A stretch of DNA of 20,810 bases from a virus. Shown piece by piece: positions 641 to 20,810 of this stretch. The stretch covers positions 1 to 20,810 of the IMG/VR virus record IMGVR_UViG_3300046451_001932; one strand, written 5' to 3'. A model generated the notes under the pieces. The model was not told the origin of the DNA. It worked only from the letters and a program-made list of their open reading frames with translations, and searched no databases. Position 1 is the first letter of the stretch, and each line of letters starts with the position of its first letter. The position numbers were made by a program, and so were the translations under genes.

Positions 641-646
641 ACCGCT

Positions 647-1105
647 ATGAAGAGTGGAGTATACTTAGCAGGAAAGATGGAGAGAGTTTCTATAGAAGCT
701 ATGAAAGGCTGGAGACAAGAGGCTCAACGTTACTTCGATGAGGTAGACATTCCAGTATGGGATCCAACAAGACGGATACCTATACACCTTCAAATAGAAG
801 GTAATCTAGAAGACGAGAGAAAAACTATAGATACCTGCAGAAAAATATTTAAGATGGACTTACAAGACATCTGTAAAAGCACAGTGATATTAGCTGATGT
901 AAGACGATATAAACAAGGGGAGATTGGTATAGGTACATCAATGGAGCTAATGTTTGCACACACTAAAAATAAAATAATAATTCTATGGGCAGATAAAAAA
1001 GACCCTATCCATCCTTTTTTAGAAGCAATTGCCACAGAAAAGTATTATGATTTAGAGGAGGCAATGGAAGCTACAGAGGAATACTTCGATGACATTTACG
1101 GTTGA
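647..1105 (+). CDS. Nucleoside 2-deoxyribosyltransferase-like protein
   Basis: The 152-aa product has the layout of the small nucleoside 2-deoxyribosyltransferase family. It has an N-terminal strand and loop YLAGKM (residues 6-11) followed by GWR, then a DL..I..STVILADV segment (71-85), then a GIGTSME motif (94-100). In this family the Glu of the GT..E motif is the catalytic nucleophile, here E100. Late HPFLE and LEEA segments also fit. Members transfer or hydrolyse deoxyribose on nucleosides, so a role in nucleotide salvage during replication is plausible; some relatives only bind nucleotides. The AAGGAG SD selects the ATG at 647. The 3' end overlaps the next gene by 17 bases. Family call fairly secure; substrate unknown. 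Confidence 0.72.
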   Translation: MKSGVYLAGKMERVSIEAMKGWRQEAQRYFDEVDIPVWDPTRRIPIHLQIEGNLEDERKTIDTCRKIFKMDLQDICKSTVILADVRRYKQGEIGIGTSMELMFAHTKNKIIILWADKKDPIHPFLEAIATEKYYDLEEAMEATEEYFDDIYG

Positions 1106-6397: not shown

Positions 6398-8818
6398 ATG
6401 AGCGGTATAGAAGAAGTAGCAAACTACCTCCGAGAGAGGGTCGAGAAAGTTAATCCTAATAATCCCAAGGCAAACTCTGGTGCAGTACTTCTTAAATTTT
6501 ATTCTAAGTTTAACGAAGAGGCAGAGAAAGTAGTTGTTATGGCAACAGACATAATACAAGCTTTCTTTTCCAGAGACACAAGGGCAGTACCAGCAGGTAA
6601 GGCCAAGCTCACAGCGCTATCCACGAGGATAGGGTCCACGATAACTAAGTACATAACAAAAGAAACAATGTCTTGGCGTAATGAGATATGTTTAGGGGAT
6701 CTGATGTTAGAAGCCTTCCTACAACGAGGCTATATAAAAATCTTTAGAGACCCAGGATTCTCTGAGTTAGATAAAGACGCACCGTTTATGGTTGAGCCTA
6801 CAAGCTATTGGGCTGAGATAAATATAATACCTATAGCAGAAGACAGGGACGTTCTTGTCGCAACCCACCACAACGAACCCGTAGAGATAAACAACTTGTT
6901 CAGAGGTGGAAGGCCCATTATTAAAGGTTGGGATGATGAAAACTCTAAAGAGTTTAATAGGTTACTTAACAGACCCTTTGTTAACGCAGCTAATAAGCTT
7001 GAACGACAAGCCTGGAAAGTAAATAAAAAGCTTTACGATGTTATCAATAGTAAGTTGTTAGATATTTTACCTAACATACCCGATATGCCTGAAGAAGGAT
7101 CTAAGTTAGATCTTAAGAACGCTTACCGGGCAATGAAGAAGAAAGATAATAAGAAAACCAGGGACCGTTATAACAAGACAGCTGCCTTGTGGAATAGAAA
7201 GCTTAATGTATTACGCTCTATGTCTAAGACTAACGAGATAAGAATAACTCTACGTAAGGCAGAGGCTATGTTAAACCTTGAGGTGTTCTATCAATCAATC
7301 GAGTTCGATTATCGTGGTCGCATCTACTATAGAGAACCTTTCCTAAACTACCAAGGTAGTGATATGGCTAGAGGGCTTATGATGTTTGCTGAAGGGGCCC
7401 AGCTGAACGAAGACGGAGTAGCAGCCCTGAAAGTACACACGGCTAACTCCTTCAATCAGAACTATAATATAAATGAAATACCTAGCTGGGTTGAGTGGAA
7501 CTACAAAGAGTATCTTGAGAAGGAAGGCTTAGATAATATCTCTGTAGATAAAATGTCTTTAAATGATAGGGTAATGTGGTGTGAGGAGAACGCTGACATG
7601 ATTCTTATGACAGCCACCGATAATACTATACATGACTGTGAAAAACCTTTTGTATTTTTAGCTTGTTGCTTTGAGTGGGCAGCCTTCGAAGCTGATCCTG
7701 AACATAAGGTCTGTATACCTACTCCTATTGACGGTACTTGTAACGGTTATCAACACTCAGCTGCGATAGCTAAAGATGGAGAAACAGGCTTGTACGTAGG
7801 TCTTGAGGATACTACTATCCCTGTAGACTTATACATACAAGTTGCTAAAGAATTATTATCTTCTGAGAAACAATTCTTTGAGGATAGAGGGATGAACTTA
7901 TCTCAGATAAGAAAAGGAATAGCCAAGCGGGCCACAATGACTAGGGCTTACTCGGCCGGAGAAGAAACAATAGCAGACAGTATGTTCAGTGATCTATATC
8001 AGTTCGGTTATGATATTAAGTTTAATATTTCTATGTTAGACTGTGAACACTTAGCTAAGAAAATAATAGAAGCTATTGCTAAGGTCTGTCCTGGTGGGCA
8101 GAAGACAATGAAGTACTTACAGAACCTAGCTGCCTACGAGCTAGGTATGTTCACAGTATATGATAAGAACGGAGATGTAGTCTCCCTCAACCAAAGAAGA
8201 AAGGATTATGAAAAGGCGAAGAAGATGAGAGCACAACTCAGAGAAGAACCAGATAATCTAGAACTACTTAAACAACTTAATGAGATCTCTAATGATATGA
8301 CCAGAAGAACTAGCGTTCTTGAAAGAGGTAACGGCAGTAATTATATTAGCTGGTCAGCCCCTTCAGGCTTCCCTATAAGGTACGAGTCTTTCTTAACAAG
8401 ATCAGAGAAATGTTTATCCACGTTAAGAGGAGTAGAAGGTGGTCAGAAGAGCCAGCCAGGTCGCATCAGACACGTAGCCCAGGTATCTACTGAACACGCA
8501 GATAAACGAGCGTTCGCAGCAGGCATATCACCTAACTACATTCACTCACAAGATGCAGCTCACATGGCTATAGTAATTAGTAAGTGGAATAAAGCCTTCG
8601 GCGCAGTACATGACTCCTTTTCCACTCATCCTAATGATATCAAGGAGTTATCCCAGATAACACGAGACGTGTTCAGGGAAATGTATGAGAAAGATAATGT
8701 GTTTGAACAGATAAAAGAAAACATCTTGTCTAAATCAGAGCAGTGTGATGTAGTAGTGCCTGATAACGGTGATCTAGAGATTGAGTTAGTCTCTGACTCT
8801 ACTTACTTTTTCGCGTGA
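6398..8818 (+). CDS. T7-type single-subunit RNA polymerase
   Basis: The 806-aa product is a phage DNA-dependent RNA polymerase (T7 gp1 has 883 aa; the N-terminal domain is shorter here). The FDYRGRIYY motif (303-311) corresponds to DWRGR of T7. Motif A has D445 in PIDGTCNGYQH. Motif B has K510 and Y518 in AKRATMTRAY, eight residues apart as in T7. Motif C has HSQDAAHM (716-723) and D739 in HDSF. The C-terminus ends in FFA, matching the conserved C-terminal foot. After motif B tyrosine there is Ser where T7 has Gly. AAGGAGAG precedes the ATG. The gene lies after primase-helicase, not at the early end as in T7, so it is probably not the first enzyme to transcribe the genome. Confidence 0.96.
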   Translation: MSGIEEVANYLRERVEKVNPNNPKANSGAVLLKFYSKFNEEAEKVVVMATDIIQAFFSRDTRAVPAGKAKLTALSTRIGSTITKYITKETMSWRNEICLGDLMLEAFLQRGYIKIFRDPGFSELDKDAPFMVEPTSYWAEINIIPIAEDRDVLVATHHNEPVEINNLFRGGRPIIKGWDDENSKEFNRLLNRPFVNAANKLERQAWKVNKKLYDVINSKLLDILPNIPDMPEEGSKLDLKNAYRAMKKKDNKKTRDRYNKTAALWNRKLNVLRSMSKTNEIRITLRKAEAMLNLEVFYQSIEFDYRGRIYYREPFLNYQGSDMARGLMMFAEGAQLNEDGVAALKVHTANSFNQNYNINEIPSWVEWNYKEYLEKEGLDNISVDKMSLNDRVMWCEENADMILMTATDNTIHDCEKPFVFLACCFEWAAFEADPEHKVCIPTPIDGTCNGYQHSAAIAKDGETGLYVGLEDTTIPVDLYIQVAKELLSSEKQFFEDRGMNLSQIRKGIAKRATMTRAYSAGEETIADSMFSDLYQFGYDIKFNISMLDCEHLAKKIIEAIAKVCPGGQKTMKYLQNLAAYELGMFTVYDKNGDVVSLNQRRKDYEKAKKMRAQLREEPDNLELLKQLNEISNDMTRRTSVLERGNGSNYISWSAPSGFPIRYESFLTRSEKCLSTLRGVEGGQKSQPGRIRHVAQVSTEHADKRAFAAGISPNYIHSQDAAHMAIVISKWNKAFGAVHDSFSTHPNDIKELSQITRDVFREMYEKDNVFEQIKENILSKSEQCDVVVPDNGDLEIELVSDSTYFFA

Positions 8819-9350: not shown

Positions 9351-12300
9351 TTATTTAAGGTTGTATCCACTACCTTCTCTATCTTTTAACTTCTGTTTTA
9401 AACTCTTACTGTCTTTATCAATCTTTTCAATATTCCTAAGATGCATATGAATATCAACGGGGAGAGTAGTATATTTTTCTTCTACTATTAAAGGTTGGTT
9501 AGTAGCAGGGTCTATAGCAAAACCCCCGAAAGCCCCCCTTGTATCGGCTATATCTTGAATTACTTTTCTGCCTCTAATAGTCACTGTTACTGTTTTGTAA
9601 TCAACAACAGGGTCCCAAGGTACATACTCTTCCTGAATTTCCCCCCCAATTAGTTCAGGTTCAAATCCAGGAGCAATTCCTTGATGTTCCGCTAATATTT
9701 TAGTAAGATTATATAACTGTCTTGGCGTAACGGTTAAAGTTTTAGCTTGTTCAGCATTAAAAGAATCGAAAGGAATGTAACCATTGAGTATAGCAGCATC
9801 TAGAGTGTCTTTTATTTTTTGATCTGCTCTAGCTTTTTCTTTTTGTACAGAAGTTCTTCTTAATTGTTCTGGGGTATAAAAGTCATTAGAATTTAATCTA
9901 ATATGTAACTCATCAAAAAAATCGTTAACCGCAGAGTAATTGGCTACCCGACCATCCTCTACTCTAGTCTGAGAGCCAATATTAATACGTTTACCTTGAG
10001 GCATCAGCAATAAATCTTCTAATTGCAAATCAAATTTATCTAATGTTTTCTCATAAGTCTGATTAAGTATACTATTACCTAGGGTTAATAAGTCAAACAT
10101 AGCTATATTTTCATAGGAATTCTTAAACTTTAGAGTAGACCCTGCAGTAGTAATAGCTGCATCGTGAATAGGGATTATATTTAAAGGCTTTTTACCTTTA
10201 GGGGAGGCATGTAGTACTCCCAGCGTCATCATTGCAGCATCACCTGCTTGAATTAGATCTACAGGCAAAGCATTTCTTAGTTGAGTAGCTCTTCTACCAG
10301 GATAATCTTTGTAAGGATTACCTTTGAATATACCTTGGCCACGTTGTATCATTTCTCTTGCAGCTACAGTAGGAGCCGACGCACCTATATCTTCTTTTAT
10401 TCTTCTGTAACCTGCTCTTATTAACCCCCCGCCTAATTCTTTAGTTCTAAGTTCTAAGGCTTGAGTAACATCTTTATTAGCAATATATTCCGGTACAAAA
10501 TTATCTTTAGCTAGTAACAGGGGCTCCCCTAAAGGCCCTAACACTTCTGTTGAAACATTTAATACTCCCATTATTTCCCCTACTGCTTTCATAGTCCTTT
10601 GATAACCATTTAACTCGGACATATTACGGTTAGAAGCCACAACAAATATTGAAGCAATATCTTTTAATAATGCATCGGTATCTAATACTCCATCAGCGTT
10701 AGTGTACAAGGGATGTAATATATCTCCGCTTAAACCAGGAACTTTATCAAGCATATCTTGTGCTTCACTCCACATAAAGATAGGGCTTTTACCATAAAGA
10801 CCTGCTACTACTAATCCTCTAGCATAAATTTTAGCTGGATTAAGTCCTTTAGTGTCTCCCATCACTTTAAAAAATTTGTGGAAAGCATCGTTCTTTAAGT
10901 TGTCTTCTTCTGCGTTTAAAGCTAGGTTAATATCTCTATCAACGTTAGCGTAAATTTTATCTCTTAAATCTTTAAACTCACCATTGCTTTCATTTAATAT
11001 ACCAAGTATCATAGCTTCATTTTCAGCCCCAATATAAAGAGACATTAAAGAAGCATTAGATTGGGTAGCGTCTTGTTCAAAAGTGTAAGTAAACTTATGA
11101 GACCCACCATCATTTAACACTACGTTATTTAAAAATTGCATCTCAGAAAGTATAGTTATAGGGTATTGCCATTCTCCCTTACCTTCTTTCATAAGTTTTT
11201 GAATAAGTTTAGGTTGGCTACTGAATTCCCCTAATGGAGTGCCCGCTTTCCTAGCTTCAACAAAAGAATTTATAACTTTAGATCTTTCTAACGCTATATC
11301 TTTATTGGTTAAAGCAAAGGCAATAACGTTAGCAGGGGCATAAGCTTTAGAGGTTGCTTTCCTTTTAACGTCTTCTGTTTTGTACAGAGTTTCACCTAAA
11401 GCATAGAAGTAATCTAACAACTGCATATCTTTCTCAGGCAAAGCGTTTAATTTTTGTTGTATATGAAGGCCGTAAGCTTGGCCTGTTCTGCTAGAAGAAA
11501 AGATTGATTCAGCTAGTTTATTAAGTCTAGAAGGTTCTAAGTCTGCTTTGGTTAAAGTAATTCTATCTACGTTAGCAAAGTTAGCTATAGTTCTAGTCTC
11601 TCCTTTACCATTAACAGCATTAATATCTATAGGAACAGGGAAATACCTTTGAGTAGTAGGTGATTTAGAATAAGTTCCAAATCTAGCAAGACTATCTGTG
11701 TATCTAGGCATTAACAGGTCTCTATGTTTCCTGGCAACACCGGATAGTTTGTCTGTAGTTTCAAAGAAAGCCGCTTCTTCTCCACGGTCTCTTACTATTC
11801 TCCTATGTTTCTCTTCACTTCCTTCTGTAAAAGTGTCTGCAAGAGGATGAGTTGAAAATCCTTTCTCCGAGTCTATATATTCGTCTGATATAACTTGATT
11901 AAGAAAGGCATCTTGAAACATAAAGGCTACTTCGTTTACTCCATGCCCTACCATGTTCATTTCTTTTATAAAGGTACTACTAAAAGTTTCTCCTTCCATA
12001 GGAAGAATAGTGTTCCTAGTTCTTTTAATTAATTCATTAGTTTCTTTATTTCTAGTATTATTCATAGGGCTAGGGGTAGTGTCTGCTAAAACTTGCATGG
12101 TAGTTTTAGACCGCATATCATTAAAGAATAACTCATTAATTTTATCTATGTTAGAAACAAATTTATTTCTATCTGCATTTAAATCTAATCTAGATTTTTT
12201 AGCTTGAGGATTAGTTTCTACTTCACCTCCTTCTTTAGCTAGTTTAGCTTTTTCTAGATTGTTTTTACCGTGTTTATTTATTATAGCTACAGGATTGTTA

Positions 12301-13355
12301 TCAGTATTAAGGGGTACTATGTAACCTTTAGCGGTTACTCCGAAAGAAAAATAACCTTTATTAAACCATAATTGAATTAATTCTGCAGCCATTTCTTTTT
12401 CTGAATCAGTAACTTCTTCTCTTAAAGGTTTATTAGGGCTTAGCTTATTCATCTGTCTTACTAAAGTCTTTGCTACGTCAGCTTCGAAAGCTCTCATAAC
12501 AGGTTGTTTATTTAATGTAACCATAGCTTCTGCAAGTAAGTCTTTAGGAGATCTCCCCTCTGAAAACTCTGATTCAACTTGATTAGGGGAGATTACTCTA
12601 ACTGCTTTTTTCTTACCTTTATTCCTACGCAATAGCATAGCGCTACCAGTTGAAATTGCTACTTCTTTTTGTAAAGCATTAGCTATAGCAGTAGCATTTT
12701 CTCCTTTTCCTATACTTTCTAACAGTATAGAGCTAGGGTCTGATTGTTTGATGTACTGCATATTATCTATGTTAGCATAAACACGAGTCATAGTAGTTAA
12801 TAGAGCTCCGGGTAAACCTATTTGGATATTAGGGTTTTCAGTTATACCAAGGTTGTCTAGCATTCTTTGCTTAGACATTTCCCCTTCAAAAGGACTGCTT
12901 TCTTTTTCGTTGGGCTCTAGTATATCTTTAGTTAATACGGTAGCGGCTCGAGAAATACTAGCAGCATCTCCTGAGGTAAAAGCTTTTCTAGCAGTTGTAG
13001 TTAAAAAAGGGTTATTACTTTCTTGAGCTGAACCTAATGTTTGCACAGTTAATTCACTAAACCCTTGGTCTGCTTCTGCAGGGAATTGATCTAGATTAGG
13101 GTCAGTGCTCTGAGTCCTAAGGAACTCTGTCGTCCCCATAATAGGCATGACTACATTTTCAGGGTTAGCATTTCTGTTTATGTCTGCTTCTTGTTGTTGT
13201 TGGAAGTTGATCTCGGGCACTACATTTCTGTTAGCATCTTGAAACACTTCTTTAGGTGTAAAGGGAAGACGGCCATCTTTAATTTCTTTAGCTAACTCTA
13301 CTGCCGGCCCTTCAACTAGGTTAGGATCTACTTTGTTTAGATTTACAGTTACCAT
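9351..13355 (-). CDS. N4 vRNAP-like virion single-subunit RNA polymerase
   Basis: The 1334-aa protein has a Gln/Asn-rich N-terminal extension (about 450 residues) and then a polymerase core. Motif A is D762 in FEQDATQSN, preceded by a segment resembling the one before D559 in N4 mini-vRNAP. Motif B is K842...R846...Y854-G855 (ARGLVVAGLYGKS; N4 AKNPLTITIYGSG). Motif C is H1064-D1065 in IIPIHDAAIT, preceded by QAGDAAMMTLG (N4 GTGDGMMMQTL). GNSILNQTYEKTL (1093-1105) resembles GNPIKNVYESY of N4. A degenerate TxxGR site may be R570. Spacings between motifs lie near those of T7 and N4 enzymes. Oddities: Arg at the usual catalytic Lys position, and no Gly before R570. It is likely packaged and ejected for early transcription. 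N4 gp50 is far larger (about 3500 aa) but sits in the same genome position. Confidence 0.8.
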   Translation of the reverse strand: MVTVNLNKVDPNLVEGPAVELAKEIKDGRLPFTPKEVFQDANRNVVPEINFQQQQEADINRNANPENVVMPIMGTTEFLRTQSTDPNLDQFPAEADQGFSELTVQTLGSAQESNNPFLTTTARKAFTSGDAASISRAATVLTKDILEPNEKESSPFEGEMSKQRMLDNLGITENPNIQIGLPGALLTTMTRVYANIDNMQYIKQSDPSSILLESIGKGENATAIANALQKEVAISTGSAMLLRRNKGKKKAVRVISPNQVESEFSEGRSPKDLLAEAMVTLNKQPVMRAFEADVAKTLVRQMNKLSPNKPLREEVTDSEKEMAAELIQLWFNKGYFSFGVTAKGYIVPLNTDNNPVAIINKHGKNNLEKAKLAKEGGEVETNPQAKKSRLDLNADRNKFVSNIDKINELFFNDMRSKTTMQVLADTTPSPMNNTRNKETNELIKRTRNTILPMEGETFSSTFIKEMNMVGHGVNEVAFMFQDAFLNQVISDEYIDSEKGFSTHPLADTFTEGSEEKHRRIVRDRGEEAAFFETTDKLSGVARKHRDLLMPRYTDSLARFGTYSKSPTTQRYFPVPIDINAVNGKGETRTIANFANVDRITLTKADLEPSRLNKLAESIFSSSRTGQAYGLHIQQKLNALPEKDMQLLDYFYALGETLYKTEDVKRKATSKAYAPANVIAFALTNKDIALERSKVINSFVEARKAGTPLGEFSSQPKLIQKLMKEGKGEWQYPITILSEMQFLNNVVLNDGGSHKFTYTFEQDATQSNASLMSLYIGAENEAMILGILNESNGEFKDLRDKIYANVDRDINLALNAEEDNLKNDAFHKFFKVMGDTKGLNPAKIYARGLVVAGLYGKSPIFMWSEAQDMLDKVPGLSGDILHPLYTNADGVLDTDALLKDIASIFVVASNRNMSELNGYQRTMKAVGEIMGVLNVSTEVLGPLGEPLLLAKDNFVPEYIANKDVTQALELRTKELGGGLIRAGYRRIKEDIGASAPTVAAREMIQRGQGIFKGNPYKDYPGRRATQLRNALPVDLIQAGDAAMMTLGVLHASPKGKKPLNIIPIHDAAITTAGSTLKFKNSYENIAMFDLLTLGNSILNQTYEKTLDKFDLQLEDLLLMPQGKRINIGSQTRVEDGRVANYSAVNDFFDELHIRLNSNDFYTPEQLRRTSVQKEKARADQKIKDTLDAAILNGYIPFDSFNAEQAKTLTVTPRQLYNLTKILAEHQGIAPGFEPELIGGEIQEEYVPWDPVVDYKTVTVTIRGRKVIQDIADTRGAFGGFAIDPATNQPLIVEEKYTTLPVDIHMHLRNIEKIDKDSKSLKQKLKDREGSGYNLK

Positions 13356-16300
13356 TTAGTTTTCTCCTAATAATCTATTTAATATTTCTTCTTCAGCTTC
13401 TCTCGAAGCTTTAAACGCACCTATAAAAGGAGTTTTCTTAGCTATTCTCTCAGGGATATCCTCTAAGCCTTTAGTATACTCTGAGTAAGCAGTACTTAAT
13501 ACTGGAGATTGTTTTACTACTGTTTCAAAAGTATTTGATAACAACCCCATTCGCTCTCCTCGTCTAGACATTTCATTTATAGCTTCTACAGCCATAGCTG
13601 GAGTACCCATCCAACCAGTATATTCTGCTGCCCTCCACTCGGAGGTTCTAAACCAATCGGGATCTTCCTCATCATCATCTAACCAAGGAGCTTTTTCACC
13701 GTACACCATGTAATCTTTTAACATTTGAGCGGTCATTGCAAGGAGATAAGCTCCCATTATTGTTTTAAATACATCGTAGCTCATCCCCGGAGGGCCTTTC
13801 ATGATGTAATTATCCCAAGTTCTAGGGATAACATTAGCGGTAAAGTGAGAAATAAAACGCATGAACTGAGTAAACAGAGCGTAGTTAGAATCTTCCAACC
13901 ATCTTGGTGAGGAGCCGGGCTCAGGTCTAACAGAGAATTCATCAGTAAAGTTAGTAACCCCTGTTCTATACTGCCTTCTCATTTCTTCTATATCGTTATG
14001 GTCCATGATCTGACTTAAGTTCTGGCCCTCGCCTAACATATCTCCTTCTTCCATAAAACCTATAGGCTGAGCTCCCATTTTAGGGTCTCTTTTAGGGCCA
14101 ATAATATCCTGGTCTATCGCTTGTTTATCAGGATTATTTAATTTATTCATTATAGTAAGTATTTTACCTACGTCTACCCCATAGTAGTTAAGGTTATCTG
14201 AGGCCCATCTACCAGCGGGAGAAACAAAGCCTCTTTCCCTATCTACTCTAACTAGTTCTACCATTTTAGAGAGATTATTCCAAGCCATAGATGCTCTAGC
14301 AGCTCTGACAGCCATAGTTTGATTCTCAACTAGGTTTAACTTATATAATATAACAGTTAATTTTTTAAACTCTTTACTTTGTGTATTAACCCCTTCAAGA
14401 TAACTGATGTCGTTAGCGTCCGGGGCTAGTATACCTGTTTCAACAAGTCTTTGAATGTCAGCATCTTCTATCTTACTTTTTCTAGAAGAGCCTTTTAATC
14501 TGTTGCCACTAAGTAACACTACATCTGAACCTAATCCTAGAAAGAAAGTTTTAGCTGCAACTTTAATATACTTAAATGTTTGTTTTCTATCTAGCCCTAT
14601 TAAACCGTAAGTCATTTCACCTATATTAGCAAAGAAATTAGTATCCATGTAGCTAAGGGTTGAAGCGAATAAAGCAGTGTCTTGAGCCCAAGCTAATTTT
14701 TTATTTTTAATAGGCCTGTAATCTCCTCGAACCATAGCAAGGTAATCTAGCGTCATCATAGAAAACTCTAGTCTTTCTTGTTCTGTAATTTCTCCTGCTA
14801 CCTGGGCTTGTTTAAGAAGATAAGAAGCTACTTGCCCTTGTTTTCCGAACCTGTCTGTTACAGTTATTTCTCTGGCTATACTATCTAGTGTGTAGTCTAG
14901 ATTTTCTCTTATATTTTTTGAAACATAAGGGCTAAAATCAGGGTTATCAAACACCCCTGCTCTTCTCAGTCTTTCTCTCTGTTCCGTAGTTAATCTACCT
15001 CTTTCAGCAGCAAAAGCTATAGCATCGACTTCATCTTTTTTAAATTTTGTTTTACCTTTATTAGCTCTACGGGCGAGGCTAGGGTTATTAAAAAATTTAC
15101 CTCTGTAACCAGGGCTAGCTAGTAACAGTCGTTTAAAATTATCATCTATCGCTTTAGGGTTTATATTATTTGCTTTAAGAAAATAATTTTGTAGCTCATT
15201 TAAAGGTAAAGATATTTCTTTTTGCAGGTTTCTTCTTTCTACTTCTTCTTTAACTAGGAATCCTACTTTTTCTAAACCATCTTTGAATAGCTGTATTCTA
15301 TTCATTCTGTCTGTTATCTCTGTGGCAGTTAGCCCTTGTTGTGTTAATAAGTTTTCAAGTTGTAACTCAGACATAGAAAGTAAAGGGTAAAGCCCATTAG
15401 GTTTAACTTTAAAATCTCTTTCTATTTCTCTTTCATCAGGTATTTCTTTGAATAGTCTACTATGTATTCCTTTTTGTTCTGCTGATATTGTGTTGCCACC
15501 AAAGATTCTGAAGTTAGTACCTATCATTGCATTAAATTCTTGCATAAACCTATTAGAGGTACCATCTTTCTTTTTAACTTTTTCAATAGCAAAGTTTCTA
15601 AAGGCTTGCACAGCCCTTCTAGGGTTAGTCACGAGGCCTAATGCTTCCCTCCATCTTCTAGGTTCTGGAACATTAATAGTGTCTTGTTCTAGGTTATAAC
15701 GCCCGCCTTTATTATTAATCTCTTGTTGTATTTGATTTCTTCTGTCGGTAACAGTAAGTTTTTTACCGTCGTTTCTGGTTCTTGCTTCTTCTTCTGCTAT
15801 AGAAAATATACTTCGGGTGCTTTCATCTTCTAGGGTATTAGCATAAAGATCTAAGTTAATAGCATCTCTTGCTTTGAGTTCTCCTCGTATAGCAAAAGAC
15901 CCACCAATAATAGAACCTATAGTGCCTGACTCTATCATGCGATACATTAGTTCTTCGTAGTTTAATTCCTTGGAGGTAGTACCGGCAATACCTATGTCTT
16001 GAATAGCTTCCTGAACAGCTTCAGTCGCACCTTCTATCCCTGCTCTTTGACTTAAACGTTTAACCAAATCACTAAAATCTTTTTTAGCTACTAGCTGGCG
16101 AGCGGCAGCATCCTTTAAAGTTACCCCTGCTTCCTTAAGCACTACCATAGTCTCTCTATTATAGAGTTCTTCTAACTCTTTCTTAGACTTAGGTGTACCT
16201 TCTCCTTTAAATTTTTTATCTAACAAATCTATTATCTGTTCTTTACCTTCTTTAGTAAAAGCATTCCTACCTAGTTCCATAGACTTAGACAAACCAAAAC

Positions 16301-17558
16301 GATCTACTAAAGCTATAGCCATAGCTATTCCGCTAGCAGTCAAAGGATCTTTTTCTCCTTCAGGTTGGTCTTGATAAACACTAGACACTGCCATAACAAA
16401 GGCTGCCCCCGTAGCAGCTACTGCTGCACCAAGTGCAGGACCTATTAATGGAATAGGTGCTCCAGCGATAGCACCAACTTTAGCTGCACCGTAGATAATA
16501 CCTAACTGAGGGCCGTACTGTACAATAGTATTACCTACAAACCTGGCTGCATCGAAAGGGTTTCTTACTGACCACATGTCTGTAGTGTACCCTGCTTTTC
16601 TTAAATCTTCTTGTGTGTCTGCCGCCCAATCTTCTCCCCATTGTGTCATAGAGTCTGAGTTAACAACATCTCCAGCCCAAGCTGAGAAACCAGCAGCAGT
16701 ATTCTCTAACATATAAAAACTTTTTTCAGCAGAGTTCCATAGCTCTCCCCAAGCCCCTGGCTTTTCAGAATAGCTTTTATCGTTATTAAGATAAAACAAA
16801 GCAGTAGGAACTGAGTTGACTAACTCTGTTTTAGCTCTCTGATGAGCTAATAGGTCGCTTTCTAGCTCAGCTTTCTTCTCAGGGTTTTGTTCTGCTTCTG
16901 CTCTGATAGAAAGACTATTAATCATAGCCTCTAGTTGAGTGCGTTGAGCAGCAAAACCTTTACTAACATCTGACTTATCTCCAAACACAGCTTTAAGTTG
17001 TGATCTCTCGTTCCCAACTACTTGTTCTACCATAGCTCTGGCTTTATCTCCGGGGGTAAGGTTATTACCTTTACCGTTAACAAAGTCTATGTACTCTCCA
17101 GCGGATCTGTTAGCAACGTTCATAGCGTCTGCCCACTTACTTCCAGGTACAATCCTTTCAGCGTGGAGATAGTCAGATAGCCTAACTCCTGCAGGGTTAA
17201 CTATTTCCCCTAAGTCTCTGCCGTAGGGGTCTTTTTCTTTAGGCCCTGTGGTGTTAAAGTTTAACTCATCCATTAACTGATTTATCTGAGAAGTTTGTAC
17301 TTCCCCTGTACGGCTACCTACCCTAAGAGTCCCGTCAGGTTCTAGCCTAGACACCTCTCCGGCATCATAGCCGGGAACTCTGAGACTATCTTCTCCTAGT
17401 TTAAAAGTGTCTCCATCATACTGTTCTACAGTTTGCCCATCAAGTTCTACAGTAGGTAAATCATTAAAAGAAATATTATCTATGGATAATACTGGAGGGG
17501 CTTCCTCTGTCTCTTTAGGCGCAAACAGATCAGCCATTTGTTCATCTAGTTCAGCCAT
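13356..17558 (-). CDS. Large internal virion/ejection protein with N-terminal SNase-like domain
   Basis: A 1400-aa protein. Residues about 40-140 fit a staphylococcal nuclease fold: DGDTF (D48, D50), LRVPGYDAGE (R60, D65, E68) and DPYGRDLG (R114), followed by GVRLSDYL. These match SNase D21, R35, D40, E43 and R87; E68 to R114 is 46 residues against 44. A Gly/Ala-rich hydrophobic stretch (about 340-394) could enter a membrane. GATEAVQEAIQ and a long charged central region follow. A second hydrophobic segment, GAYLLAMTAQML, lies near the C-terminus. Size and position suggest a T7 gp16-like ejected core protein. An AGGAA SD precedes the ATG. The stop TAA directly abuts the ATG of the next gene in the same frame. 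Confidence 0.72.
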   Translation of the reverse strand: MAELDEQMADLFAPKETEEAPPVLSIDNISFNDLPTVELDGQTVEQYDGDTFKLGEDSLRVPGYDAGEVSRLEPDGTLRVGSRTGEVQTSQINQLMDELNFNTTGPKEKDPYGRDLGEIVNPAGVRLSDYLHAERIVPGSKWADAMNVANRSAGEYIDFVNGKGNNLTPGDKARAMVEQVVGNERSQLKAVFGDKSDVSKGFAAQRTQLEAMINSLSIRAEAEQNPEKKAELESDLLAHQRAKTELVNSVPTALFYLNNDKSYSEKPGAWGELWNSAEKSFYMLENTAAGFSAWAGDVVNSDSMTQWGEDWAADTQEDLRKAGYTTDMWSVRNPFDAARFVGNTIVQYGPQLGIIYGAAKVGAIAGAPIPLIGPALGAAVAATGAAFVMAVSSVYQDQPEGEKDPLTASGIAMAIALVDRFGLSKSMELGRNAFTKEGKEQIIDLLDKKFKGEGTPKSKKELEELYNRETMVVLKEAGVTLKDAAARQLVAKKDFSDLVKRLSQRAGIEGATEAVQEAIQDIGIAGTTSKELNYEELMYRMIESGTIGSIIGGSFAIRGELKARDAINLDLYANTLEDESTRSIFSIAEEEARTRNDGKKLTVTDRRNQIQQEINNKGGRYNLEQDTINVPEPRRWREALGLVTNPRRAVQAFRNFAIEKVKKKDGTSNRFMQEFNAMIGTNFRIFGGNTISAEQKGIHSRLFKEIPDEREIERDFKVKPNGLYPLLSMSELQLENLLTQQGLTATEITDRMNRIQLFKDGLEKVGFLVKEEVERRNLQKEISLPLNELQNYFLKANNINPKAIDDNFKRLLLASPGYRGKFFNNPSLARRANKGKTKFKKDEVDAIAFAAERGRLTTEQRERLRRAGVFDNPDFSPYVSKNIRENLDYTLDSIAREITVTDRFGKQGQVASYLLKQAQVAGEITEQERLEFSMMTLDYLAMVRGDYRPIKNKKLAWAQDTALFASTLSYMDTNFFANIGEMTYGLIGLDRKQTFKYIKVAAKTFFLGLGSDVVLLSGNRLKGSSRKSKIEDADIQRLVETGILAPDANDISYLEGVNTQSKEFKKLTVILYKLNLVENQTMAVRAARASMAWNNLSKMVELVRVDRERGFVSPAGRWASDNLNYYGVDVGKILTIMNKLNNPDKQAIDQDIIGPKRDPKMGAQPIGFMEEGDMLGEGQNLSQIMDHNDIEEMRRQYRTGVTNFTDEFSVRPEPGSSPRWLEDSNYALFTQFMRFISHFTANVIPRTWDNYIMKGPPGMSYDVFKTIMGAYLLAMTAQMLKDYMVYGEKAPWLDDDEEDPDWFRTSEWRAAEYTGWMGTPAMAVEAINEMSRRGERMGLLSNTFETVVKQSPVLSTAYSEYTKGLEDIPERIAKKTPFIGAFKASREAEEEILNRLLGEN
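13364..13368 (-). promoter_or_regulatory. Ribosome binding site for the vRNAP-like gene
   Basis: On the minus strand this reads AGGAG, eight bases before the ATG at 13355 and inside the last codons of the upstream gene. It supports separate initiation of the polymerase gene although both genes share a frame. Confidence 0.75.
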
Positions 17559-17566
17559 TAATTTTC

Positions 17567-20518
17567 CTACTGTTGTTTCTTTTTCTCACTAAGTAAATAA
17601 ATTAAAGAAAAATAAGGATTCTTATCTATGAATTTATTTATATTAACTAGAGAAGGGCTGTTATCTTCAACAAGCTTCTTATAAAGAGCGGATTCTTTTA
17701 TTCTATCAGGAATACTAGATGTAATTTTATTATTTTTGTCTAGTTCGAAATCGTAACCCTCAGTATTTAGTAACTGATCTGCTTTTCCTATTAACTCATT
17801 TACTTCTTTAAGAGTAGGGGCTAACTCTATTAAATTATTAATATCATTTTGATTAACATTAGCTAGTAATTTGCCTTGAGGAATACTTCCTCCTCTTACT
17901 ACCATAAAGTCTAATAGTCCGGCTAGAGTAGTGCCTTTTGCTATCTCACCTTCACGCGCAGCTATAGCAATAGGGTTAATATAACTATTAACCAGGTCAG
18001 TTTGGTCTAAACCTCTTTTAGCTGCGAAAGCCGCTATTGGGGCGGCAAAAGAACCGGCATCGCTAACGTCAGAAAAAGTGTTTACTAAAATAACTTGAGT
18101 ACTTTTAAAATCTTCGTCTGTACCCACTACTTTTTTAAGATTATCAAAATATTTTACAGCAGCGTTATTTGCATTCTCTAATACGTCCTTACTTGTTTCT
18201 GACCATTGAGCTTCGGTTCCACCTAAGGTAACAGTTTTATAAACAGCTTCACCGTTTTTATTACCAGTAACTACTTCATAATTACCTGGTGATCTTTTAG
18301 AAGGGAAAGCTTTGTATAATCTAGCACTTCCTTTTTCAGAAACCTTAATAGACTTCTCCCCTATACTCGCGTGTTTACCGAACTCAGTTAGGTTCTTTGT
18401 ATCGTTCATTAACTTAATAATAGCCGGTAAATCTTGTCTTAAAAAAGCTCTTTCTATAGCTGTTCGAGCACTAAGTTTATAACCTATTTTATTTTCATCA
18501 AATAAAGTTTTAAAGTTCTTGTAAGTATCTTTCATCCCAGAAGCCCCAGCTGTAGCCCGGGAAGCATCGGTCCTTTGTTGTAAGGTCTGTCTAAGCTTAA
18601 CATCATCAAGTACCTGCTTACCAGCAAATCTCATTGAACCCCCGTGGCTACCGCCTGATAATCTACCTCCAGCATAGTACAACATAGCTCTCATAACGTC
18701 TTGTTTGTTAAAACCAAATAATTCATTTATACTTTTAAATATATCTGTACCATCAGTTTTATTTCCGTCAGGGCCAGTTATTATTACTTTTCCTTTTGAA
18801 TCGTAAGCGTTAGTCTCGTAATCGTCTAACATTTCTACTGTATGTATACCGTCTGTAACAACTTTTCCATCTGGAGAAGTAATTACTTTTTCACTTAAAC
18901 GTTTAGTAATTACTTTTTCACTTAAACGTTTAGTAATCTCTTCATCATAAGTACTATCGGGTAAAGGGCCAACTGCAGGGGGTTGCTTTGTAATAAAAGA
19001 GTCTAACATTTTATTACGTGCTACTACTTTTGCGTCTTCTCTTCTTTCTAATAATGGTTTAAAATTTATAGCCTTATTAAAGTTTTCAGTAACTGCACCG
19101 GTTAAATTATTAAACCTATCTCCCACAGAAGAAAGAGGTTCTACAACATGGGGTCCAGGGACGTTTTGAATACTTGAACTTAATGTTTTTTTCATTTGGT
19201 CAACAAAATTACGAGTAGGATTATAACCTAACCTTACTGCTTCATCTTGTCTTAGTTTTTCATACTGGGAGATAGGCCCAGTAGCTGCCATAGTATTTTT
19301 AAGCCTGTAGTCTTTTCTTCCAGACTCTCGTCGTTCATCTTCTCTTTGAATACTTCTGCCTTGCTCTATCATTCTTGATATAATAGCATTATTAGCGGGT
19401 ATTTGAGCAGACTCTGCGGGTATAACTGCTTCTCCAGGGGTTAACATAGCTGGAACAGTATCATCAGCAGTTCCTCCAGGAGGATTACGCATTGCTTCAA
19501 CATTATCTAGTATTTCACCTACATTCATATCGCTGAGATTTCTGTCGGTAGGCCCTCTTCTACTTAGTATATCAAGATAGGTAGAGATGTCAGGTTGTAC
19601 CATACTATTTCCTTTATTATATCCTTTTATTACTACTCCTGGATTCTGAATAGCTTGTCTTTGTATTTGTCCTGCCTTTATTGCACTTAACGCGTTAGCA
19701 TCGATACCCATCGGCGCAGGTACAACAGAAATACTACTAGTATTAATGTCACCCCCAAGTGCAGGCACGACTGCACCACTATTTCCTTCCTCTAATCTTT
19801 GCGCTATTAAAGCTTGCAAAGCAGCATCATAAGGATCTTGTGTGGAAGGAGTATTTAATTGAGCAACTTCCATAGGTCTAGGTAAAGGAGGAAATCCATT
19901 TTCAATTTGACTAAAGTTAAAAACACCTGCTATAGTATCTTTACCTTTATCTGTTTTAATATAAGGAGGTTTTTCTGTTGTCCCAAAATCTTTAGTATAG
20001 CCTAAAATAAAGTTTAGATAATCAATAGTCTCTTGATTGTTAGGCACTCCGCCAATTTTAGAGACTGCACCGAAGCCTGCGTTATAAGCAGCAACAGCCA
20101 AGTCGTAGTCGCCATCATACCTCTTTAATAATGCCTGTAAGTAGTTCCCTGAAAAATCTAAATTAGTTTTTTCATTATGCATATTTGGTATTATAGCGTT
20201 AATCCAATTATTTTTTTCTTCTTTAGACAAACTCTCCCAAAAAGATTCTGGCCCTCGATCTTTTTCTTCTTTATTGGCTCTATCTGTATTATAAGCTTTT
20301 TCTAATTTATTATACGAAGGAGAAAATCCCTCAACCCCTATTCCGGGCTGTAAAAAGGTAGAAGGAAGGATCTGACCTAACCCTCTTGCGTTGTCTTCAG
20401 AGATTTTACTAGTGTCAAAAGAGCTTTCTCTAAAAACAAGTTTTTCAAATATACCGGGGTCTATCTTTCGATCGGCTGCTACTTTTTTAAGGTACTCTAT
20501 AATCTGTTGTTCATTCAT
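17567..20518 (-). CDS. Internal virion protein with lytic transglycosylase domain
   Basis: A 983-aa protein. Residues 1-175 are an SLT-type lytic transglycosylase: catalytic E31 in FRESSFD, ARGLGQILPSTF (44-55), and LQALLKRYDGDYDLAVAAYNAG (127-148). These enzymes cut peptidoglycan, and podoviruses carry them inside the capsid for genome entry, as in the T7 gp16 N-terminus. A disordered Pro/Gly-rich middle contains VPAMLTPGEAVIP (355-367), a motif recurrent in phage tail and ejection proteins. A 9-aa perfect tandem duplication (530-547) follows. The C-terminal half is charged and helical with no domain I recognise. The ATG has only a weak AGAAG-type SD. The stop lies eight bases before the next gene. 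Confidence 0.85.
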   Translation of the reverse strand: MNEQQIIEYLKKVAADRKIDPGIFEKLVFRESSFDTSKISEDNARGLGQILPSTFLQPGIGVEGFSPSYNKLEKAYNTDRANKEEKDRGPESFWESLSKEEKNNWINAIIPNMHNEKTNLDFSGNYLQALLKRYDGDYDLAVAAYNAGFGAVSKIGGVPNNQETIDYLNFILGYTKDFGTTEKPPYIKTDKGKDTIAGVFNFSQIENGFPPLPRPMEVAQLNTPSTQDPYDAALQALIAQRLEEGNSGAVVPALGGDINTSSISVVPAPMGIDANALSAIKAGQIQRQAIQNPGVVIKGYNKGNSMVQPDISTYLDILSRRGPTDRNLSDMNVGEILDNVEAMRNPPGGTADDTVPAMLTPGEAVIPAESAQIPANNAIISRMIEQGRSIQREDERRESGRKDYRLKNTMAATGPISQYEKLRQDEAVRLGYNPTRNFVDQMKKTLSSSIQNVPGPHVVEPLSSVGDRFNNLTGAVTENFNKAINFKPLLERREDAKVVARNKMLDSFITKQPPAVGPLPDSTYDEEITKRLSEKVITKRLSEKVITSPDGKVVTDGIHTVEMLDDYETNAYDSKGKVIITGPDGNKTDGTDIFKSINELFGFNKQDVMRAMLYYAGGRLSGGSHGGSMRFAGKQVLDDVKLRQTLQQRTDASRATAGASGMKDTYKNFKTLFDENKIGYKLSARTAIERAFLRQDLPAIIKLMNDTKNLTEFGKHASIGEKSIKVSEKGSARLYKAFPSKRSPGNYEVVTGNKNGEAVYKTVTLGGTEAQWSETSKDVLENANNAAVKYFDNLKKVVGTDEDFKSTQVILVNTFSDVSDAGSFAAPIAAFAAKRGLDQTDLVNSYINPIAIAAREGEIAKGTTLAGLLDFMVVRGGSIPQGKLLANVNQNDINNLIELAPTLKEVNELIGKADQLLNTEGYDFELDKNNKITSSIPDRIKESALYKKLVEDNSPSLVNINKFIDKNPYFSLIYLLSEKKKQQ
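18878..18931 (-). repeat. Perfect 27-bp tandem duplication in the transglycosylase gene
   Basis: Two identical adjacent 27-base copies (18878-18904 and 18905-18931), with six bases of a third. They encode KRLSEKVIT twice and keep the frame. Identity at every base suggests a recent duplication. Confidence 0.95.
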
Positions 20519-20532
20519 AAGATTACTTTCTT

Positions 20533-20810
20533 CTAATCAGCCTTATTTCTCTTCATCATCATGTCATAGAGCTTAGCATCATGTAGTTCATCTGCTCTTC
20601 GTTCAGCTTTTTCAACTTTAAAACTATCTAACTGTTTTTTAGATGAAGGGCCTCCAGACATAGGGCCTGCTACCCCTCCTCCAGGACCACTAAATGGCCC
20701 AATTTGATCAAGAATATAAGGTGAAAGTCTTAAAAAATTTTCTTTCATCTTATCTATTCCAGGACCATTAAATGGCCCAACTTGATCAAGAATATAAGGT
20801 GAAAGTCTTA
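20533..20810 (-). CDS. Pro/Gly-rich repeat protein, 5' end outside window
   Basis: The minus-strand frame is open to the right edge, so the ATG at 20748 is probably internal and the gene is longer than 92 codons. The visible part has a 26-aa unit, RLSPYILDQ(V/I)GPF(N/S)GPG, seen twice, followed by GGGVAGPMSGGPSS and a charged helical C-terminus ending MMMKRNKAD. I do not recognise a family. It lies 14 bases upstream of the transglycosylase gene, so a small virion or assembly protein of the ejection apparatus is likely. The Gly/Pro-rich repeat is probably unstructured or a linker. Confidence 0.7.
   Translation of the reverse strand, partial: RLSPYILDQVGPFNGPGIDKMKENFLRLSPYILDQIGPFSGPGGGVAGPMSGGPSSKKQLDSFKVEKAERRADELHDAKLYDMMMKRNKAD
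20680..20810 (-). repeat. 78-bp in-frame tandem repeat, cut by window end
   Basis: Bases 20683-20732 and 20761-20810 match at 48 of 50 positions with a 78-base period (26 codons). Both differences change the amino acid (Val/Ile, Asn/Ser). The array may continue beyond the right edge. Confidence 0.92.

Follow-up and report, generated by a model that had tools for sequence, protein, structure and literature searches.

The late region of this phage encodes a 1400-aa protein whose first residues resemble a staphylococcal nuclease (SNase), raising the question of what a nuclease domain might be doing at the front of a protein that appears to be carried in the virion. The window, a 20,810-nt stretch of viral DNA (IMG/VR record IMGVR_UViG_3300046451_001932, positions 1 to 20,810), encodes on its minus strand a late cassette of three large genes lying 0–8 bases apart, in the order 983-aa transglycosylase protein, 1400-aa SNase protein and 1334-aa polymerase-like protein. 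The first of these ejection-type proteins (17567..20518) has an N-terminal lytic transglycosylase domain (PF01464 SLT, E value 3.8e-13) and matches phrog_342 (internal virion protein with endolysin domain, E value 1.2e-10). The second (13356..17558) is an uninterrupted ORF with an ATG start, residues 496–554 of which match phrog_6958 (virion structural protein, E value 6.8e-9). Residues 340–400 of this protein are Gly/Ala-rich and nearly without charge, and a hydropathy scan placed its strongest hydrophobic stretch, a candidate membrane segment, at residues 376–394 (16377..16433, minus). The third gene occupies 9351..13355. An ordinary T7-like RNA polymerase gene, the second polymerase of the genome, converges on the cassette from the plus strand (6398..8818; PF00940, E value 1.9e-55; phrog_414, E value 8e-106). 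From the gene order, the transglycosylase and polymerase-like neighbours and the one PHROG match, we infer that the 1400-aa protein is present in the virion and ejected into the host.

The SNase domain spans residues 36–140 (17139..17453, minus), with support from AlphaFold2, Foldseek and profile matches, and residues 40–140 (17139–17441) read YDGDTFKL...SLRVPGYDAGEVSR...EKDPYGRDLGEIVNPAGVRLSDYL. Its metal-ligand and catalytic set aligns with that of thermonucleases: D50 (codon 17409..17411, minus strand, as are the codons that follow) with the metal ligand D21, R60 (17379..17381) with R35, D65 (17364..17366) with the metal ligand D40, E68 (17355..17357) with E43 and R114 (17217..17219), within a DPYGR motif, with R87. 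D50 is invariant in the family and in the thermonucleases, R60, E68 and R114 are likewise invariant, and D65 is kept in nine of the ten sequences of the family alignment (A4). The ORF translation places these residues where the first-pass annotation had put them (D48/G49/D50/T51, R60, D65, E68 and Y112/G113/R114). The near-family spacing that it described also holds, with five residues from R60 to D65 and three from D65 to E68, as in bona fide thermonucleases, while the turn from D50 to R60 is shorter than theirs (alignment A8); A66 and G67 are indeed present in place of T-P. The domain is acidic (10 K/R versus 19 D/E in residues 40–140), which is unusual for a DNA-degrading enzyme and counts against an active nuclease; the marine setting may explain this acidity.

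Taken alone, the window protein is recognised by none of the SNase family models: a Pfam search gave no match to PF00565 (SNase), and PHROGs and NCBIfam gave no significant SNase match; relatives and profiles were therefore needed to assess the domain. The curated PF00565 cut-off (21 bits) is missed by the window protein (no match) and by its relatives L002 (17.2 bits) and L006 (13.5 bits); remote-homology tests are positive, and the cut-off is a technical limit with no biological meaning of its own. The family profile (A4) matches staphylococcal nuclease 1syb in the PDB over the whole domain (E value 6e-5), and hhalign comparison of the family alignment with five annotated bacterial thermonucleases returned a probability of 96 (E value 2e-9, 98 columns). 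An SNase HMM built from thermonucleases and foturvirus domains only, with this family excluded, was run over 722 ORFs (≥60 aa, from 13 loci) and placed family members at ranks 1–8, the window domain scoring an E value of 0.0012 over residues 39–128. A single-sequence phmmer search of the PDB found only designed repeat proteins, headed by 'Cake' proteins, which we rejected as an artefact of summed sub-threshold repeats (each with an i-E value ≥15).

The AlphaFold2 model of the domain, built from ten sequences, has a mean pLDDT of 85.7 and a strand-helix order of E-E-E-E-H-E-E-H-H. All of the 50 Foldseek matches to the PDB that were listed are SNase or SND1 (Tudor-SN) structures (best E value 2.9e-4, probability 1.00, TM about 0.5), with SND1 domains ranking first. 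Structure prediction, which the first-pass annotation had proposed as a check, thus yielded an OB-type SNase barrel followed by helices rather than some other fold. On these profile comparisons and this model, residues 36–140 form an SNase domain, and profiles, predicted fold and gene context together support its placement at the front end of a large protein encoded in an ejection-type cassette. Nuclease activity can be lost while the fold persists, as SND1-type SNase domains demonstrate. Given the moderate TM and the SND1 domains ranking first, the fold is secure, but the fold alone is no proof of activity.

Conservation of the catalytic residues among relatives was also examined. Roseobacter phage CRP-7 gp34 is related to the 1400-aa protein across 98 % of its length (30–33 % identity; tblastn, alignment A1), and IMG/VR scans returned further relatives, all on uncultivated viral contigs; no prophage or cellular copies were found in 84,980 species genomes searched with the family alignment (A3). 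The comparison covered eleven distinct sequences (window, L001, L002, L003 (CRP-7), L005, L006, L007, L010, L011, L014 and L027). The D/R/D/E/R set is complete in ten of them, down to about 20 % overall identity, the exception being L014, which has Asn instead of D65, the second metal ligand. Loss of these residues in all relatives, which the first-pass annotation had regarded as grounds for abandoning its assignment, is therefore not what the family displays. All five catalytic columns fall within the 16 of 141 columns conserved in at least 90 % of ten relatives (p about 1e-5 for a random choice of columns, a value that is only indicative as the relatives are not fully independent). The sequence nearest to a textbook SNase is that of L002 (DGDTL...TRLENIDTPE...FFGRNLG), for which PF00565 is the best family (E value 0.007), and L006 matches phrog_452 (endonuclease, E value 5e-5). 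Proteins from L033–L037 were rejected as SNase relatives, having only the hydrophobic 350–544 region in common and no SNase motif.

Comparison of the window with L002 revealed two near-identical phages that differ in this cassette. BLASTn identity is 94.7 % up to position 9354 and 97.2 % from 18585 on, while the block between (9354..18585) retains only scattered patches at 67–80 % identity. This block takes in the polymerase-like and SNase genes together with the 3′ portion of the transglycosylase gene, whose 5′ portion lies in one conserved flank; the other flank holds the gene for the T7-like polymerase. The block has evidently been replaced as a unit, with chimeric assembly of one contig a possible source of the difference. 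The SNase proteins of the two phages are 42–44 % identical, and both versions keep the catalytic set.

A weak tblastn match led to a second case, the internal virion protein of Alteromonas phage H4/4, in which the SNase domain (DGDT...LRVGYINTPE...HFGR) scores 23.7 bits to PF00565, above the 21-bit cut-off. The same domain opens the large internal virion protein of phage R8W and of an environmental relative (L039). These foturvirus (Autographiviridae) domains keep the catalytic residues, and the proteins (H4/4 gp40 and R8W gp44) bear only the annotation 'internal virion protein'. Both lineages thus have an N-terminal SNase domain on a very large ejection protein, with the difference that the foturvirus domain belongs to a T7 gp16-like protein whose gene immediately follows a small endolysin gene of its own, as observed in H4/4 and R8W. 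Hhalign detected no homology between the 1400-aa protein and the foturvirus gp16-like proteins outside the SNase domain; only that domain aligns, and the fusion has thus probably occurred on two occasions. Independent joining of an SNase to the N-terminus of a large ejection protein in each lineage would be the simplest reading of these sequences, although distant common ancestry of the remaining parts of both proteins is possible.

In the annotation of H4/4 (L004 7501–13370, gp39/gp40), a −1 frameshift links the SNase-led gp16-like protein to a lysozyme-like ORF; this frameshift may be real or an annotation choice, and in R8W (L040) the two are separate genes. Apparent SNase-like domains were also seen, as profile or fold matches, in phrog_8809 (2317 aa, positions 1101–1212), BFVD entry A0A6J5NQ80 (1342 aa) and A7KUR9, and the combination of an SNase with a very large phage protein may be wider still.

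The third gene of the cassette returned no Pfam, PHROG or NCBIfam match. However, a Foldseek search of the PDB with its AlphaFold2 model, itself only modestly confident (pLDDT 65), placed RNA polymerases of mitochondria, of T7 or of the N4 virion in the first 27 positions (best E value 8.5e-5), pointing to a single-subunit (T7/N4-type) RNA polymerase fold at about residues 560–1200. Motif columns agree with this assignment: motif A contains D762, motif B K856/R860/Y868 and motif C H1064-D1065, and D762, Q765, S766, K856, H1064 and D1065 are invariant in the alignment of this protein (A5), homologues of which were found in L002, L003 (CRP-7 gp33), L005–L007, L010, L011, L014 and L027. No sequence similarity to the N4 virion RNA polymerase was detected (hhalign probability 0.2; no hit in a PDB profile search), and we therefore do not claim membership of that family; nor was a direct sequence match detected to the T7-like RNA polymerase of the same genome, likeness to which is visible by fold comparison alone. 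On the predicted fold, the 1334-aa protein is a candidate virion RNA polymerase outside the Schitoviridae, and it is this fold that makes the cassette look N4-like.

The domain and its cassette can be set against the closest known systems. The domain shares its predicted fold, its full catalytic set and its motif order (DGDT...R....D..E...DxYGR) with the SNase/thermonuclease family (PF00565), which includes the S. aureus nuclease and the phage GBSV1-NSN nuclease, the latter being a free phage SNase that is already characterized (PMC2390534). It differs from that family in being fused to a 1400-aa ejection-type protein rather than secreted or free, in having A-G for T-P between the D40 and E43 equivalents, and in a single-sequence divergence that takes it below the family cut-off. 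Roseobacter phage CRP-7 encodes direct homologues (gp33–gp35) in the same gene order, and its replication genes and T7-like RNA polymerase gene converge on them as in the window; its host is known (Rhodobacteraceae FZCC0042), and gp33–gp35 were published as hypothetical proteins. The ejection operons of DEV and N4 (Schitoviridae) end in a virion RNA polymerase (PMC10925440, PMC12633501), and here too the late operon ends in a single-subunit-type RNA polymerase gene and faces convergent early genes. Unlike N4, however, the polymerase-like protein has 1334 aa rather than about 3,500, and no SNase domain has been reported in N4 ejection proteins. T7 gp16, another large late protein with an enzyme domain at its N-terminus, carries a lytic transglycosylase there (residues 1–156; PMC8954989); in the window, by contrast, the N-terminal place goes to the nuclease domain, and peptidoglycan cutting to a domain of the 983-aa protein encoded just before. 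Homology to the T7 gp16 family beyond the enzyme domain was not found by hhalign against the foturvirus gp16-like proteins. Finally, crAss-like phages encode PDDEXK nuclease domains, one of them inside a large transcription-associated protein (PMC10136315), and so resemble the window in having a nuclease domain in a large, possibly co-injected protein alongside a virion RNA polymerase; the nuclease fold, the polymerase family and the phages are all different.

The reading that we prefer, and to which we give about an even chance of being correct, is that this is a lytic marine podovirus of the CRP-7 kind and that the 1400-aa protein is the middle one of its three ejection proteins, bearing a catalytically complete SNase that is packed, ejected and cuts nucleic acid near the entry point. 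The protein would be packed in the head and leave via the tail ahead of the genome, its hydrophobic middle part (376–394) presumably inserting it in the host envelope. The N-terminal SNase could then refold outside the virion, take up host-side divalent metal and, conjecturally, cut host DNA or RNA, or other incoming DNA, near the entry point. The N-terminal enzyme domain of T7 gp16 is periplasmic, and by analogy the periplasm would be the favoured location of the SNase domain; such a placement would speak for action where the DNA enters rather than for wholesale degradation of the chromosome. Comparative evidence in support of a nuclease is that the catalytic set is kept while the cassette is replaced between near-identical phages, and that the same architecture, apparently separately evolved, is found in foturvirus gp16-like virion proteins. 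A point against it is that phage DNA packed next to an active nuclease would be at risk in calcium-rich seawater if the enzyme were not kept inactive or unfolded.

The main rival to an active nuclease is a non-catalytic one, in which an SNase-derived OB fold serves a structural or nucleic-acid-binding role in the ejectosome, contacting the incoming DNA end or other ejection proteins. OB folds are a common binding module, SND1 domains are the closest structures among the 50 Foldseek matches listed, the domain is acidic, one metal ligand is missing in L014, and ejection proteins and genome share the head, all of which would fit binding. The five catalytic columns, however, would be needless for pure binding, yet they are among the most conserved of the domain and survive cassette replacement, and the foturvirus version, at 23.7 bits to PF00565, keeps them as well; we consider this alternative possible but not probable. 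An active nuclease could instead serve virion maturation and act on the phage's own DNA, trimming its ends or cutting DNA trapped at the portal. Although the protein would assemble beside packaged DNA and ion changes on ejection could switch a metal-dependent enzyme, SNase-type enzymes lack sequence specificity and there is no pointer to a defined cut site (the phage DNA ends lie outside the window), which makes such a role improbable. We find it similarly hard to credit that the 1400-aa protein is a late nuclease-bearing product that stays in the cytoplasm and only happens to be encoded beside the ejection genes. Its presence in the virion is deduced, and CRP-7 gp34 is annotated only as 'hypothetical protein', but its size and its place between the transglycosylase and polymerase-like proteins in a close-packed late operon, the PHROG virion structural protein match and the separate foturvirus example annotated as internal virion protein all argue for a virion location.

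Beyond the preferred reading of an ejected SNase acting near the entry point lies a broader and rather doubtful one, in which a nuclease and a phage-encoded single-subunit RNA polymerase, forming one exchangeable cassette, are both ejected along with the genome of a podovirus outside the Schitoviridae. Transcription of the entering DNA would fall to the polymerase while the SNase, at the site of entry, attacked nucleic acid of the host or DNA of a rival, an SNase having been recruited at least twice for this purpose. If true, takeover could proceed without host transcription, starting before any phage gene is expressed.

Enzyme domains known from podovirus ejection proteins cleave peptidoglycan, and in N4 there is a polymerase as well. 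If the preferred reading is correct, a nuclease that travels in the head and leaves it before the DNA would be a new kind of cargo, acting before any phage gene is expressed, and such phages may deliver a nuclease of their own to the host. The first-pass annotation knew of no described example. This still stands for the literature, in that a search with most subscription journals outside its reach found no paper describing an SNase in a podovirus ejection or internal virion protein; it does not extend to the databases, where H4/4 and R8W share the architecture and a 1342-aa uncultured-phage protein in UniProt has the automatic name 'SNase-like, OB-fold'. What is new is thus the location of the domain, not the domain itself, and two lineages share it. 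The finding poses the puzzle of how a metal-dependent nuclease might be kept in the head with the packaged phage genome and yet leave that genome intact, and the apparent double recruitment and the catalytic conservation despite the cassette swap make the role testable in cultured CRP-7 and in Alteromonas phages H4/4 and R8W.

Three further ORFs in the window were noted. A 165-aa SegE-type GIY-YIG endonuclease (1321–1818, plus; PF19835, E value 9.6e-22), a probable free-standing homing endonuclease, is encoded just before the DNA polymerase gene. A nucleoside 2-deoxyribosyltransferase-like protein is encoded at 641–1105 (plus; PF05014, E value 4e-5, below the cut-off). At the other end of the window, 20533–20808 (minus) encodes the C-terminal part of the next late protein, with the tandem repeat RLSPYILDQ[VI]GPF[NS]GPG.
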